This document shows, piece by piece, positions 16,623-28,249 of a stretch of DNA of 30,055 bases. The stretch is from IMG/VR virus record IMGVR_UViG_3300021403_000041, positions 1-30,055 of that record; one strand, 5' to 3'. Below the pieces are notes generated by a model that was given only the letters and a program-made list of their open reading frames with translations, had not been told where the DNA came from and searched no databases. The position numbers were made by a program, and so were the translations under genes. Source of the stretch: a virus. How positions within the stretch are numbered: the first letter of the stretch is position 1; every line of letters begins with the position of its first letter.

Positions 16623-17392
16623 TGGCGTCATCGAGTTGGACCGGAAATCCGATCGGCGCGCAAGCCCTGCAAGCGCCGGATGGACTAGCGACGGCCCCGT
16701 CGATGGCATTCGCGAGTGAACCGACGACTGGACGCTATCGTCTTGGAACGAACGATGTCGGAGAAGCCGTTAACGGGGCTGCGGTGATGGACTGGACCGC
16801 CACGCGCTTCAATTTGCCCGCTGGCATAGGGCTCGCGTTCGCTGGCGATATCGGGACGAATGGCAAGGTCCTCGTTGGAGGAAGCAATGGGGCATGGACC
16901 GCGAGTCCGAGTCTGACGGGACTCACGCTCAGCGGCACGGCGGCGCTGGCCACTGTGACCCAGACGGGAAAAACCACCACCTATAACGGGATCGCGACGG
17001 CTGGTTTAGGCACGCCTGTGGTGGTGGCGTACGCGCGCGTGACGGCCCAGTCGTCCGCGAATGCGTCTATCGCCACCTACACGGTGGGAGCCTCGGACGG
17101 AACCTTCGCCGTAAGCGCCAACATGAATGTGAGCGCCGTAACAGTGCTATCCACCGTCCTGACGTGCACCTATACCGATGAAACGAATACATCGCGATCG
17201 TTGATTCTGCCGATTGCGCAGCTAGCGGGCACCTTCATCGCCGCTGGCGTGATTAGCGCGACGGGTGTGTGGCAGACCGCCATCATGCACATTCGCGCGA
17301 AAGCCTCGACCGTGATTACGTTGCTGAGTGCTACGGGCACGTTTACGGGCGTCACGTACGCAGCCGAAGGTTTGATGGTTCAAGTGGCATGA
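16622..17392 (+). CDS. Tail-appendage/fibre-like protein
   Basis: 256 residues. Residues 25-60 (PSMAFASEPTTGRYRLG, then EAVNGAAVMDW) match a repeat common in phage tail fibres and appendages (PSIAFASEPTTGLYR). It is followed by a Gly/Ala-rich region and a C-terminal beta domain. It sits between gp4-like and gp10-like genes, an unusual place for a fibre; it could be a short appendage or neck whisker. ATGA overlap with the gp10-like gene. Confidence 0.6.
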   Translation: MASSSWTGNPIGAQALQAPDGLATAPSMAFASEPTTGRYRLGTNDVGEAVNGAAVMDWTATRFNLPAGIGLAFAGDIGTNGKVLVGGSNGAWTASPSLTGLTLSGTAALATVTQTGKTTTYNGIATAGLGTPVVVAYARVTAQSSANASIATYTVGASDGTFAVSANMNVSAVTVLSTVLTCTYTDETNTSRSLILPIAQLAGTFIAAGVISATGVWQTAIMHIRAKASTVITLLSATGTFTGVTYAAEGLMVQVA

Positions 17393-18858
17393 TCCAGCCG
17401 TACCCCAACTTCATCGGTGGGAGTAATCAAACCCAATCGGTCATCGGTGACGCCGAAGACACGATTAATTGGTACTTTGAGCCCGCACGATCGGCTGGTT
17501 CCACGAGTGCTGGTTATTTGCTGCCGACGCCTGGCTATAAGGTGAAGTGGACGACCTCTGACATTGCGGGCCGTGCGCTCTTTGCTGGGGTCTTTAATGT
17601 GCCTGCGGTGCAGACGAATCGCATTTTCGCGGTCATTGGCTCCGACTTCAGAGAATTATTCGCTGACGGCACGTCAGTAAGTCGAGGCACGGTCGCCGTC
17701 AATAGCAATCCAGCCACGATTTGCACCAACGGAGACGGAGGCAGCCAACTCTTTATTACGAGCGGTGATGTTGGCTACTGCTTTAATCTGACGACGAATA
17801 CCTTAACGACGGTCATTGCGAGCGGGGCAACGGTGGGGGGGCAAGCCTACGGCTACTTCATCAGTTTCAATATCGCCAACTCGCAGATTCGCCTGTCGGC
17901 GTTATTTGATGGCACGACGTGGGACCCCACACAGTTCTTGCAGCGATCCATTGGGGCTGATCCATGGCAATCGATGTTAGTGAGCTCCTACGGCCAGATT
18001 TGTCTTCCTGGCAGCAAGACCGGTGAATTTCTCTACAACACGGGAACCTTCCCTTTTCCGTTCGCGCCTGATCCGTCAGGTCTTTTCGCGGAAGGCATTG
18101 CCGCCACCTTTTCGCTGTGCGAAGCTGGCGGATCACTGTGTTGGTTGTCCACAACGGCCAATGGGGGCTATCAAGTGGTGCGCGCCACGGGCTTTACGCC
18201 TACGCCAATCACGAGCCCTGCTGTCTCGTATGCGCTTTCTCGGTACAACCGTGTCGATGACGCGATCGGTCAGACCTATGAGGAAGCGGGCCATTCCTTT
18301 TATCTCCTGACGCTGCCGAGCGCTGGCATTACATGGGCCTACGACTTCACGACGAATCAATGGCATAAGCGTCAGACGTGGATCGCCGAACGGAACATGT
18401 ATGTTGATGAGCATGCGGTGTGGCATGCCTTCGCGTTCAACGCGCACTATATGGCCGATCGGACGACAGGCACGATCTACCAGATGGATGTGAGCTTTGA
18501 AACCGACGTAGATAGTCGGCCTATTCGGCGACTTCGACAAGCGCCCGCTGTTGAACGTCAGAACATGGTGATGTTCTTTCCGCTCTTTGAAGTGATCGCG
18601 GATGTGGGGTACGGCACAGAAACAGGAGCGGCTTCTGACCCGCAGATCGTCGCGCAATTTAGCGATGACGGCGGACAGACGTGGGGCAATGAGCGGCAAG
18701 CGAGCATGGGCAAAGTCGGCCAGTTTGGCACACGCATGACGTGGTGGAATACCGGCAGCGCTCGGAAGCGCGTCAATCGAATCGTCTGTATCGATAGCGT
18801 GCCGCGTCGGATCGTGGATGCCTCTCTCAAGACGAGCGCAGGAAGAGAGGCCGCCTAA
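17389..18858 (+). CDS. Tail hub/DNA stabilisation protein, P22 gp10-like
   Basis: 489 residues from ATG at 17389, overlapping the previous TGA; a longer upstream frame from 17269 is antigenic noise within the fibre-like gene. The start QPYPNFIGGSNQTQSVIGDA and ENWYFE-like region (TINWYFEPA) fit the gp10 family. Later parts include GTTWDPTQF and PAVSYALSRYNRVDDAIGQTY, typical of this beta-propeller-like protein. P22 gp10 is close in length (about 470). It forms the tail hub ring below gp4 and holds packaged DNA in. Confidence 0.8.
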   Translation: MIQPYPNFIGGSNQTQSVIGDAEDTINWYFEPARSAGSTSAGYLLPTPGYKVKWTTSDIAGRALFAGVFNVPAVQTNRIFAVIGSDFRELFADGTSVSRGTVAVNSNPATICTNGDGGSQLFITSGDVGYCFNLTTNTLTTVIASGATVGGQAYGYFISFNIANSQIRLSALFDGTTWDPTQFLQRSIGADPWQSMLVSSYGQICLPGSKTGEFLYNTGTFPFPFAPDPSGLFAEGIAATFSLCEAGGSLCWLSTTANGGYQVVRATGFTPTPITSPAVSYALSRYNRVDDAIGQTYEEAGHSFYLLTLPSAGITWAYDFTTNQWHKRQTWIAERNMYVDEHAVWHAFAFNAHYMADRTTGTIYQMDVSFETDVDSRPIRRLRQAPAVERQNMVMFFPLFEVIADVGYGTETGAASDPQIVAQFSDDGGQTWGNERQASMGKVGQFGTRMTWWNTGSARKRVNRIVCIDSVPRRIVDASLKTSAGREAA

Positions 18859-19341
18859 ATGGCGATCACTTCCGCCCAGTTTCCTGTGCGTGAACCGTTG
18901 GCGGATCGGTCCACTGGCTTAGTTCGTGATCCGTGGCGCATCTGGTTTCGTAATCTGCTGACGGTGCAACAGGCGCAGCCAGTGGTGACGACGCCTGTCG
19001 TGTCGCTCATGGGTAAGTCCGCCTCCGTCGCGCTGGCGGCTTTCAATACAGGGACGCTCGCGATCGGTAACTATCGCCTGAGCTATTACATCACGGTCGC
19101 TACCGCGGCTGGCGTCTCCAGCAGTTTAACTGTGACGGCAAGTTGGACAGATCACAGCGTGGCTCAGACGCGCACGAGCGCCGCGATGACCGGGAATACG
19201 ACGGCGACGAATCAGAGCGAGATATGGCCTATCCATATTGATGCCGCGTCTCCTGTGAGCTATACGCTCACCTATGCGTCAAACCCGGCGAGCGCGATGG
19301 TGTACAACGCGTATATTATTCTTGAAACGGTGGCGATATGA
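18859..19341 (+). CDS. Virion-associated protein (hypothetical)
   Basis: 160 residues. The start (ITSAQFPVREPLADR, then DPWRIWFRNLL) resembles a short module often found after gp10-like genes. The rest is a beta-rich domain (YRLSYYITVATAAGVSSSL). TAAATG junction upstream with AGAGG nearby; ATGA overlap with the GNAT gene downstream. Probably a tail component, not assigned further. Confidence 0.6.
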   Translation: MAITSAQFPVREPLADRSTGLVRDPWRIWFRNLLTVQQAQPVVTTPVVSLMGKSASVALAAFNTGTLAIGNYRLSYYITVATAAGVSSSLTVTASWTDHSVAQTRTSAAMTGNTTATNQSEIWPIHIDAASPVSYTLTYASNPASAMVYNAYIILETVAI

Positions 19342-19772
19342 GTGTACGAGTCGCCACGCTTTTAGATGTGCCGCGCATCGTTGAAATGGGGTCTGATTTC
19401 CTGCGTGAGTCTGAGTATCGATCTGTCTTTCTGGAAAATCCATCACAAATTCAAACACTCGCCACGCAACTAATTATCGGCGAACACGGCATGGTGTTTC
19501 TACTTGAACGCGCGGATCGCGTCGTAGGGATGATCGCCCTTGTTGCCTACGATCATTTTATTTCTGGGCAGCGTGTGGTGGGAGAAGTGGTCTATTGGGT
19601 GGAGGTCTCAGCCCGAGGACTCGGTCTGCGGTTACTTCGTGCGGCAGAGAAATGGGCCAAAAAAAAAGGTGCAGTACTAATTCAGATGATTTCTCCAAGT
19701 GCGCGTACCGACGCGCTCTATATGCGCCTTGGCTATGCGCCGATCGAACGCACGTTTCAGAGGGCGCTATGA
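19338..19772 (+). CDS. GNAT family N-acetyltransferase
   Basis: 144 residues with the GNAT plan: N-terminal strand and helix (VRVATLLDVPRIVEMGSDF), the central strands (MVFLLERADRVVGMIALV), then the acetyl-CoA loop near residues 91-100 (SARGLGLRLL) followed by the helix RAAEKWAKKKGA and the typical end (TDALYMRLGYAPIERTF). It would move an acetyl group from acetyl-CoA to an amine. The loop lacks the first Arg/Gln of the classical motif. Both ends overlap neighbouring virion genes. Similar GNAT genes in podoviruses lie in structural blocks; the target is unknown. Confidence 0.8.
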   Translation: MSVRVATLLDVPRIVEMGSDFLRESEYRSVFLENPSQIQTLATQLIIGEHGMVFLLERADRVVGMIALVAYDHFISGQRVVGEVVYWVEVSARGLGLRLLRAAEKWAKKKGAVLIQMISPSARTDALYMRLGYAPIERTFQRAL

Positions 19773-20344
19773 TAACGGTCCCGACGCCTGATCCAAACAT
19801 CCTTGTATTTGACGACGTACTGGCTGATGCAGACGGCTACCGTGAGATGGCGCTTGGTCTGCCTTATCAGAGCTACACGCTCGGGCTTGCGACGTTTTAC
19901 GGGATCGCGATGGCTCCTCCAGTCGTCAGTGATCTGATTGCGCGTGAATGTCCTGAACGTGCTCCGACGCTGAGTTTTTTTCGCCAGAGTCCAGAAGGAC
20001 AAGCGGAACCGAACTTCATTCATAGCGACAGGTCGATGGGTGCGTGGACTGGCCTTCTCTATCTGACGCCGAATCCGCCAGAGGAGGACGGTACGACGTT
20101 TTGGGAGCATGCGTCAGGCGAGCGATTTGATGCGAGTCCGACGATCGATGAATACGCCACGAATGGTCTACGCTGGATAGATACGGATCAATGGACGCCG
20201 TGGTATCGCGTACAGGCGAAGTTTAACCGTCTGGTCCTCTTCGCGGCTCCGTACTATCACTCACGAGCCATCTTTGAGAACTTCGGAGAAGGCGCATCGG
20301 CGAGATTAGTGAATGTAACCTTTGGGAGTTGGAAATGTCAGTAG
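19769..20344 (+). CDS. 2-oxoglutarate/Fe(II) oxygenase-like protein
   Basis: 191 residues from ATG at 19769 (overlapping the GNAT stop). The iron facial triad appears as H85-x-D87 (FIHSDRSMG) and H164 (PYYHSRA), with R179 as candidate 2-oxoglutarate anchor. The strand after HxD (WTGLLYLTPNPPEEDGTTFW) and RLVLFAAPYYHS match double-stranded beta-helix oxygenases, including prolyl-hydroxylase-like types. It would hydroxylate a protein or small substrate. Coupled to GNAT within the tail block, it may modify virion or host proteins. The family call is by motif only. Confidence 0.7.
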   Translation: MITVPTPDPNILVFDDVLADADGYREMALGLPYQSYTLGLATFYGIAMAPPVVSDLIARECPERAPTLSFFRQSPEGQAEPNFIHSDRSMGAWTGLLYLTPNPPEEDGTTFWEHASGERFDASPTIDEYATNGLRWIDTDQWTPWYRVQAKFNRLVLFAAPYYHSRAIFENFGEGASARLVNVTFGSWKCQ

Positions 20345-20862: not shown

Positions 20863-21639
20863 ATGACGCGATGGGGATTCTGTCTTGCGCTCGCGTTCTG
20901 CGTGAGTGCATGCAGTCCGATTTCGCCCAGTAGAGGAACCATCATGGCAGATTTCAGCAGCGTTCCTGGAGCCTATGTCGCGCGAGATGGGAATTGGTAC
21001 GGCCCTGATGGCACGTTACTGGGTCCCAGCGATCAAGCGCCCAACCCTGCTATTGCGACGGGGAGCGGCCCTGGTGCAACGCCTGGCCGAGCAGCGAATA
21101 TCGGCCAACCTGCGGACCCAGTTCCTTCCGATCAGACGACGACACCTCCTCCGAGTAGTGCGGGATTTCAATGGCCCAGTTATACGCTGCCGACGCCATA
21201 TCAGTTCACGCCGTTTAGCTACGATAGTTATACGCCGTTAACAGCGGATCAAGCCGCGCAGACACCTGGTTATGCCTTTGGGGCGCAGCAAGGGCGCGAT
21301 GCTATTCAGACGTCGGCCGCCGCGAACGGGAATGTCTTGAGCGGTGCCACGCTGAAAGATTTATTTTCGTGGGGCGATCAGTTTGCGGGCCAGAACTATC
21401 AGCAAGCCGAGACGCAGAATGAAAATGTCTACAACATGAATCGGAACAATGCCTTTAATAATTGGGCCGGGAATCAGGCGGGCGGACTACAAGCGTGGGA
21501 AGCGAATAATCAGCCCGCCCAGTTTCAGGCGGCGTCGATTAATCAGCCCCAAGCGGCGCTGACATTCGCCGACTTGTTTAATCGCCTCCAGCTCGGAGTC
21601 AATGCTAACACGGCTATTGCGACGGCAGGCGCTTCTTAG
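20863..21639 (+). CDS. Virion protein with optional lipoprotein signal
   Basis: 258 residues from ATG at 20863 (GAGG just upstream). Residues 1-17 form a lipoprotein signal (TRWGFCLALAFCVSAC, lipobox VSAC, Cys17). A second in-frame ATG at 20944 has AGAGGA six bases upstream and starts MADFSSVPGAYVARDGNWYG without the signal. The body is Pro/Gln/Ala/Asn-rich (VYNMNRNNAFNNW) like internal or tail proteins. It may be made in lipidated and plain forms, or the signal may be a separate short reading frame lacking a stop. Sits in the ejection-protein row. Confidence 0.6.
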   Translation: MTRWGFCLALAFCVSACSPISPSRGTIMADFSSVPGAYVARDGNWYGPDGTLLGPSDQAPNPAIATGSGPGATPGRAANIGQPADPVPSDQTTTPPPSSAGFQWPSYTLPTPYQFTPFSYDSYTPLTADQAAQTPGYAFGAQQGRDAIQTSAAANGNVLSGATLKDLFSWGDQFAGQNYQQAETQNENVYNMNRNNAFNNWAGNQAGGLQAWEANNQPAQFQAASINQPQAALTFADLFNRLQLGVNANTAIATAGAS

Positions 21640-27181: not shown

Positions 27182-27453
27182 TGCCCCCGTGGCTGGCGAT
27201 CACCTTAGGCGTCTGCGGCGTCAGTGTGACGCTCGTAACGCTGATCGCCAAATTAGGCGCGAACGATGGCACGAGTAAAGCGGAGATGAAAGCGCTCTCA
27301 GATCGGGTGGGGTCGAATGAGCGGGAGATTCAACTTCTTCGCGACTGGCGGCATACAGTGGGGAACTTTCAAACGTCCCTGTTAGCGGTCGATATGTTGG
27401 TCAAGCGCACAGATCGGCTGGAGGCCAAAGTGTTCAATGGCGGTGGCAAATGA
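27181..27453 (+). CDS. Single-pass membrane coiled-coil protein (holin/accessory)
   Basis: 90 residues. One membrane segment at about residues 4-24 (WLAITLGVCGVSVTLVTLI) followed by a coiled coil (MKALSDRVGSNEREIQLL). Such proteins next to endolysins are often holin accessories, antiholins or i-spanin-like. TAATG upstream and ATGA-like overlap with the lysozyme support co-translation. Role uncertain. Confidence 0.6.
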   Translation: MPPWLAITLGVCGVSVTLVTLIAKLGANDGTSKAEMKALSDRVGSNEREIQLLRDWRHTVGNFQTSLLAVDMLVKRTDRLEAKVFNGGGK

Positions 27454-27911
27454 CGCCGAACGATTTCGCGGCCTTGCGCGATGCAGTGAAGCAAGATGAA
27501 GCGTTTCGCGCCAAGCCCTACGATGACGCCACTGGACAAGCCGTATTTCCAGGCTACACCCTGAAGGGGAAGCTAACCATCGGATGGGGATGGAATCTCT
27601 CCGATGACGGTATTTCGACGGCCGTCGCCGCCACGATCTTAGATACGACACTCGAACAACGCTTTGCGGAGTTAACACAGACGCATCCCGTGGTGCTCAC
27701 GCTGAATGGTCCGCGGCAGATCGTGCTGGCTAATATGGCCTACAATCTGGGCGTGCCGCGTTTGTCCAGCTTTGTCGTTATGTGGGCGGCGATTGGACGT
27801 GGAGACTTTAACGCCGCGGCTGATGAAATGCTCGCCTCGACATGGGCGCACCAGGTGGGCGCTCGGGCGACTCGACTTGCGACGGAAATGAGAACAGGAG
27901 CATTAGAGTGA
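27450..27911 (+). CDS. Endolysin, GH24 lysozyme
   Basis: 153 residues of the T4-lysozyme type. The catalytic triad pattern E-x(8)-D-x(~17)-T is visible: E17 (QDEAFRAKPYDD), D26 and T43 in LTIGWGWNL. Further family marks are RQIVLANMAYNLGVPRLSSF and the WAHQVGARATRLATEMR end. It cuts the MurNAc-GlcNAc bond of peptidoglycan. There is no signal sequence, so release should need the holin next door. It overlaps both neighbours. Confidence 0.9.
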   Translation: MTPNDFAALRDAVKQDEAFRAKPYDDATGQAVFPGYTLKGKLTIGWGWNLSDDGISTAVAATILDTTLEQRFAELTQTHPVVLTLNGPRQIVLANMAYNLGVPRLSSFVVMWAAIGRGDFNAAADEMLASTWAHQVGARATRLATEMRTGALE

Positions 27912-28249
27912 CTGATCTTTCACCGGCCGCAGAAGCCTTCTGGGGCGGCATTATTCGGCATCTCCTCAGCGCGGCGATGGGCGCGCTGGTTTTGCATGGC
28001 TACGCGACACAGAGCGGCGCACAAGCATACACAGAAGAACTGGTCGGCCTGACGTTGATGGGCGCGACACAGCTTTGGGCCAATCGCATCATCTATTGGC
28101 AGCAAATCCGGGCCATCGTTGGTCGGTCCATGCCCGTCTCTACACATGCCGACGTAGTCGCAAAAGTCGATCAGTTGAAAGAGGCAAACGCGTTACCGTC
28201 GGTGTTTACTCCACCGACCGTTACTCCAAGTTTGGTGAAACCTGCATGA
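27908..28249 (+). CDS. Holin (predicted, two membrane segments)
   Basis: 113 residues from GTG at 27908, overlapping the lysozyme stop (GTGA). Two hydrophobic segments at about residues 13-33 (GGIIRHLLSAAMGALVLHGY) and 45-63 (LVGLTLMGATQLWANRIIY) match class II holins. The soluble tail follows the second segment. It would make the inner-membrane holes that free the lysozyme. No recognised subfamily. ATGA overlap downstream. Confidence 0.7.
   Translation: MTDLSPAAEAFWGGIIRHLLSAAMGALVLHGYATQSGAQAYTEELVGLTLMGATQLWANRIIYWQQIRAIVGRSMPVSTHADVVAKVDQLKEANALPSVFTPPTVTPSLVKPA

Follow-up and report, generated by a model that had tools for sequence, protein, structure and literature searches.

In phage P22, the genes from the head closure protein Hc3 onward are ordered 10 (Hc3), 26 (needle), 14, 7, 20, and 16, and in phage T7 the order is 11, 12, 13, 14, 15, and 16. 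P22 gene 14 (DUF2824, PF11039) and T7 gene 13 (PF11090) have both been linked to virion assembly, but how they act is not understood; T7 gp13 is reported to be necessary for virions to take up other essential proteins (PMC5592923). A cobavirus GNAT acetyltransferase (pc40 of SIO1) has already been proposed as the counterpart of T7 gp13 (PMC6775973). Likewise, in Lentibacter phage ICBM2 and Roseobacter phage CRP-4, a GNAT gene is located at the gene-13 position, between the tail/structural genes and the first internal virion protein gene. Pam1 also carries a GNAT gene nearby, but 5' of its needle gene. In Burkholderia phage JC1, the published description places a GNAT close after head closure and regards it as a moron, with no oxygenase. 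The GNATs of SP6-like coliphages are similar in sequence but are encoded before the head-tail adaptor, and we rejected them as gene-13 counterparts. No oxygenase partner or fusion was seen in the cobaviruses and their relatives (SIO1, ICBM2, CRP-4), and phage GNATs and 2OG oxygenases appear only as separate auxiliary genes in PMC11288001. In the open-access literature searched, we found no description of a GNAT–oxygenase pair and no mention of DUF6445. Thus, GNATs at this position and 2OG oxygenases in phages are known, whereas their conserved pairing and fusion in the ejection loci of P22-like phages are apparently new.

The stretch of DNA that we analyzed (hereafter, the window) is the 30,055-base IMG/VR record IMGVR_UViG_3300021403_000041. 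It belongs to a short-tailed, P22-like phage, with a P22-like structural block in which the profile search detected the portal (phrog_156), a P22-type coat protein (phrog_283), and Hc3 (phrog_578). The original prediction placed two enzyme genes, overlapping by ATGA, between the tail hub and the ejection-type genes. Two open reading frames with this overlap were indeed present (Table 1), and their location in the tail/ejection block held, whereas "tail hub" proved to be a loose term, the pair being preceded by a needle-position protein and, before it, by Hc3. The GNAT gene, lying after Hc3 and the needle position and before the ejection genes, is the positional counterpart of P22 gene 14 and T7 gene 13.

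Table 1. Features surrounding the GNAT and oxygenase genes in the window (aa, amino acids).
Feature	Position	Strand	Basis or remark
Head closure Hc3 (P22 gp10-like)	17389..18858 (probable start)	+	phrog_578, E 2.1e-74, from residue 48 of a long ORF
Needle/short-tail-fibre-position protein, 160 aa	18859..19341	+	Upstream neighbour of the pair; placed by position
ATGA stop-start overlap, upstream gene/GNAT	19338..19341	+	Sequence
GNAT acetyltransferase, 144 aa	19338..19772	+	PF00583, phrog_1249, alignment, AlphaFold2 model
ATGA stop-start overlap, GNAT/oxygenase	19769..19772	+	Sequence; AGAGGG just 5'
2OG-Fe(II) oxygenase (DUF6445/phrog_1644), 191 aa from ATG	19769..20344	+	Profiles, invariant residues, AlphaFold2 model
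First ejection-type protein, 173 aa	20335..20856	+	Start within the oxygenase gene
Second ejection-type protein	20863..21639	+	phrog_598 "DNA ejection", E 1.4e-6

The Hc3 of the window was 44% and 40% identical to those of two relatives (L006 and L007, respectively). Its mechanically called ORF begins at a GTG (17269), but the ATG at 17389, which overlaps the upstream stop codon (gene end, 17392) by ATGA, fits the homology better and is probably the start. The needle-position protein gave no convincing family match in the Pfam and PHROG profile searches; its homologues are present in many relatives, likewise immediately 3' of Hc3. An HMM built from the first ejection-type protein matched genes labelled "DNA ejection" or "DNA transfer protein" in phages VvAW1, P26218, BA3, and DSL-LC05, and this protein may be a substrate of the pair. 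Because the needle-position, GNAT, and oxygenase genes are joined by stop-start overlaps and the first ejection-type gene starts inside the oxygenase gene, the four genes would form one coupled chain. Farther downstream, the window encodes an endolysin-like protein (27450–27911; phrog_7, E 1.5e-12) followed by a holin-like gene (27842–28249; PF23987, E 1.7e-4, under the cut-off).

The first enzyme was identified as a GNAT, as had been predicted. It matched PF00583 (E 5.8e-9; 36.7 bits against a cut-off of 20.7 bits) and phrog_1249, annotated as "acetyltransferase" (E 1.3e-22). Its AlphaFold2 model had a pLDDT of 95.1, and the best structural match in BFVD was the GNAT of Roseobacter phage CRP-4 (TM 0.92). 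The assignment of the GNAT fold is therefore well supported by profiles and the predicted model. A single-sequence scan for close relatives of this GNAT confirmed none. By alignment, the phosphate loop of the window GNAT (ARGLGLRLL) falls short of the canonical [R/Q]xxGx[G/A] by about two residues. A short loop was also found in most of the paired GNATs, typically as RGxG[VLI]RLL, with RG and the second G mostly kept. The phosphate-loop motif varies among GNATs. The short loop makes standard use of acyl-CoA less assured without affecting the fold assignment, and acyl-CoA use by this GNAT may be non-standard.

P22 gene 14 and T7 gene 13 share the slot with the GNAT gene and encode proteins of similar size (138–151 amino acids). 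Neither P22 gp14 nor T7 gp13 had a Pfam GNAT match, and the window GNAT had no Pfam match to PF11090 or PF11039. When the GNAT profile was compared with these proteins using hhalign, T7 gp13 gave E 0.007 over just 17 N-terminal residues, and P22 gp14 gave a non-significant E of 0.084; homology to either protein was not established in this way. The GNAT could nevertheless be a non-catalytic assembly factor, equivalent to T7 gp13 or P22 gp14, so that only the oxygenase, if either, would be an enzyme. The gene position and the short phosphate loop common to most paired GNATs agree with this explanation, and T7 gp13, which is known as a protein required to assemble the virion and not as a catalyst, points the same way. 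However, the GNAT profile still matched solved GNAT acetyltransferases (E 1.8e-8), and across 69 GNAT sequences E83 was invariant and Y128, R93, G94, G96, and L99 were at least 90% conserved. We consider a non-catalytic GNAT unlikely.

For the second enzyme, the profile evidence was graded. The match to PF20043 (DUF6445) was marginally over the 24-bit cut-off (24.2 bits, E 3.7e-5), and relatives of the oxygenase scored 33–37.5 bits against the same family. The match to phrog_1644 was strong (E 4e-21), and the direct match to 2OG-FeII_Oxy_3 was weak (E 0.023). Relatives were gathered from viral contigs by a single-sequence scan followed by a profile scan, the latter of which found 546 viral-contig stretches encoding one. 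Among 71 aligned relatives, H85, D87, H164, and R179 were invariant, as were R72, G108, T109, R154, and F185. From knowledge of the superfamily, we take H85, D87, and H164 to be the iron ligands and R179 to bind 2OG; both the HxD...H triad and the distal arginine are thus present throughout the alignment. The AlphaFold2 model, for which (as for the GNAT) the alignment rows were the window and contig sequences only, had a pLDDT of 94.5. In a Foldseek search of the PDB, all 50 matches listed were 2OG-Fe enzymes by name or known members of the superfamily, including SnoK, SnoN, HygX, ColD, OGFOD1, Tpa1, AlkB, proline hydroxylase, and HalA, with TM scores of about 0.43–0.58 on the query length among the matches listed. 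These results support well the predicted double-stranded beta-helix fold of the 2OG-Fe(II) superfamily, and with them the original reading of the HxD...H motif as that of an oxygenase; the invariance of the residues together with the fold rules out a chance HxD motif. A structure search without any oxygenase fold had been named beforehand as a refuting result, and it did not occur.

Small-molecule tailoring enzymes are among the best PDB matches of this fold, and cyanophage 2OG oxygenases have been proposed to act in host 2OG levels (PMC3037559). Both points would suit a metabolic or nucleic-acid-directed pair, serving 2OG/nitrogen signalling, small-molecule tailoring, or DNA modification. A pattern scan of 84,980 prokaryote species returned a single oxygenase locus, a count that is a lower bound because the pattern was restrictive; an alignment of the whole family, cyanophage members included, diverged too much for such a scan, and a closer set was used instead. 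With only this one locus, the oxygenase looks viral rather than metabolic, and a family nearly absent from cellular genomes argues against such roles. So do the regular placement of the pair between needle-position and ejection genes in P22-like contigs and the lack of any recognised DNA-modification gene among the scanned genes of the window. We therefore regard a metabolic or DNA-directed pair as very unlikely. The cyanophage oxygenases (phrog_1644; syn9 gp52) belong to the same family by profile and have the same invariant H, D, H, and R; syn9 gp52 is encoded within a gene cluster with several annotated 2OG oxygenases, where no GNAT partner was found. Two PHROG labels, "minor coat protein" (phrog 1644) and "DNA endonuclease V" (phrog 274), are attached to proteins with the 2OG-oxygenase fold and are probably misleading, which bears on the annotation of the relatives of this oxygenase that carry the former label.

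To assess the linkage of the two genes, we searched all loci with HMMs of our own and removed duplicate records of the same contig. The original prediction had called an oxygenase an unusual partner for a GNAT, which we also found, and had named a failure of co-conservation as a possible refutation. The pair was in fact conserved: 57 distinct contigs, the window among them, carried the two as separate adjacent genes, and the 4-nt ATGA/GTGA overlap was retained in 37 of these. A few of the 57 (L134, L139, L140, L145, L155) had about 0.2–0.6 kb between the two matched domains. In 14 further contigs, the pair was fused in one reading frame, 12 in the order GNAT-oxygenase and two in the order oxygenase-GNAT (L136, L154). 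In all, the pair was adjacent or fused in about 70 phage sequences besides the window. Compared with the GNAT domain of one fusion relative, the GNATs of the cobaviruses and their relatives showed only about 28–31% identity. A tree of 73 non-redundant oxygenases, built by a quick method, required at least four changes between the fused and separate states. An origin of the fusions from assembly frameshifts is unlikely, given that two are reversed and that the fusions group into clades drawn from different samples. Among close relatives, dN/dS was about 0.11–0.21 for the GNAT and 0.08–0.16 for the oxygenase, indicating purifying selection on both.

Among 80 loci chosen for the oxygenase alone, 70 had a GNAT gene. 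The other ten also had no detectable Hc3 gene, and those inspected had other contexts; every oxygenase-selected locus with a detectable Hc3 gene had a GNAT. In a sample selected by Hc3 alone, the oxygenase was present at only three of the 61 loci, and a GNAT was present at all three, compared with 27 of 61 overall. This association pointed in the same direction but was weak alone (p = 0.08). The linkage of GNAT and oxygenase is thus well supported. Among the P22-like phages seen here, the oxygenase was confined to GNAT-carrying loci, and we conclude that the slot is more widely occupied by the GNAT, the oxygenase being a lineage-specific addition. Among the phage records searched, we found no cultured phage with the pair.

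The lasting adjacency and occasional fusion of the two genes suggest joint action. We propose a two-enzyme module, expressed late and coupled in translation, which modifies an adjacently encoded virion protein during assembly, a reading to which we give a probability of roughly 0.5. The GNAT, using acyl-CoA, and the 2OG-Fe(II) oxygenase would share a target or a complex. The target would most likely be a neighbouring virion protein, either the needle-position protein or one of the ejection proteins, modified post-translationally while the virion is assembled. The GNAT would work at the step of T7 gene 13 and P22 gene 14, and the oxygenase would have been added to that step. This proposal builds on the folds, the intact metal and 2OG ligands, the conserved GNAT residues, the overlaps, the co-conservation, the fusion in both orders, the purifying selection, and the position of the genes; from these we infer late expression, catalysis by both proteins, a viral-protein substrate common to both, and timing in assembly. 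Relatives of the oxygenase that stand alone in other phage types speak against a two-enzyme module. As a narrower form of the proposal, the two enzymes might act sequentially on one site of the virion protein, with the oxygenase hydroxylating it and the GNAT acylating the new or a neighbouring group. Such a sequence seems a doubtful prospect, but if true, it would be an undescribed compound modification of an ejection or needle-position protein, tuning assembly or membrane passage.

Since the pair adjoins the ejection genes, and since its encoding in the structural block would put both proteins within reach of packaging, both enzymes could instead enter the virion, be ejected with the internal proteins, and modify targets in the host as infection begins, in takeover or counter-defence. 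On the other hand, GNATs are similarly placed in phages that differ greatly, as do their hosts, which fits morphogenesis better than a host-specific effector, and we hold delivery into the host to be unlikely. The locus offers an approach to the role of T7 gene 13 and P22 gene 14: at the same slot, dozens of contigs pair a confident GNAT with an oxygenase whose active site is complete, sometimes as one polypeptide. The question of slot function thereby becomes one of enzymology, with a few candidate substrates encoded next door.

In other relatives, the slot held a GNAT alone, a cupin-like protein, or nothing recognised, which indicates that the proposed modification is not a universal requirement for assembly. 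The cupin-like protein, so labelled from a weak PF07883 match, is found in the slot of VvAW1, BA3, DSL-LC05, and P26218-type phages. Cupins belong to the double-stranded beta-helix folds; we found no sequence relation between the cupin-like slot proteins and the pair. A GNAT and a cupin occurred together in none of the 49 loci with the slot fully visible (Fisher p 0.0018, with kinship ignored).

Several further slot proteins were noted. A cupin-like protein carries a C-terminal SET domain in L053 (10809–11735; PF00856, E 4.7e-6) and, with a weak match, in L008 (7732–8607). SET-domain proteins elsewhere are lysine methyltransferases, which raises the possibility that protein-modifying enzymes are drawn to this slot. 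By eye, the slot GNAT (355 amino acids) has an N-terminal sulfotransferase-like domain in L092 (3808–4875) and L096 (3232–4299). Small slot proteins in L009 (8821–9192), L013 (7438–7803), and L015 (8596–9003) also look GNAT-like by eye, with weak or no family matches, and are possible links towards P22 gp14-like proteins. Outside the P22-like loci, an oxygenase without a GNAT was seen in another phage type, possibly of Bacteroidota (L170, 5430–6468; L002, 4426–5480), and in L170 it is located directly 3' of a GroES-like gene (phrog_13932) and 5' of terminase-like genes.
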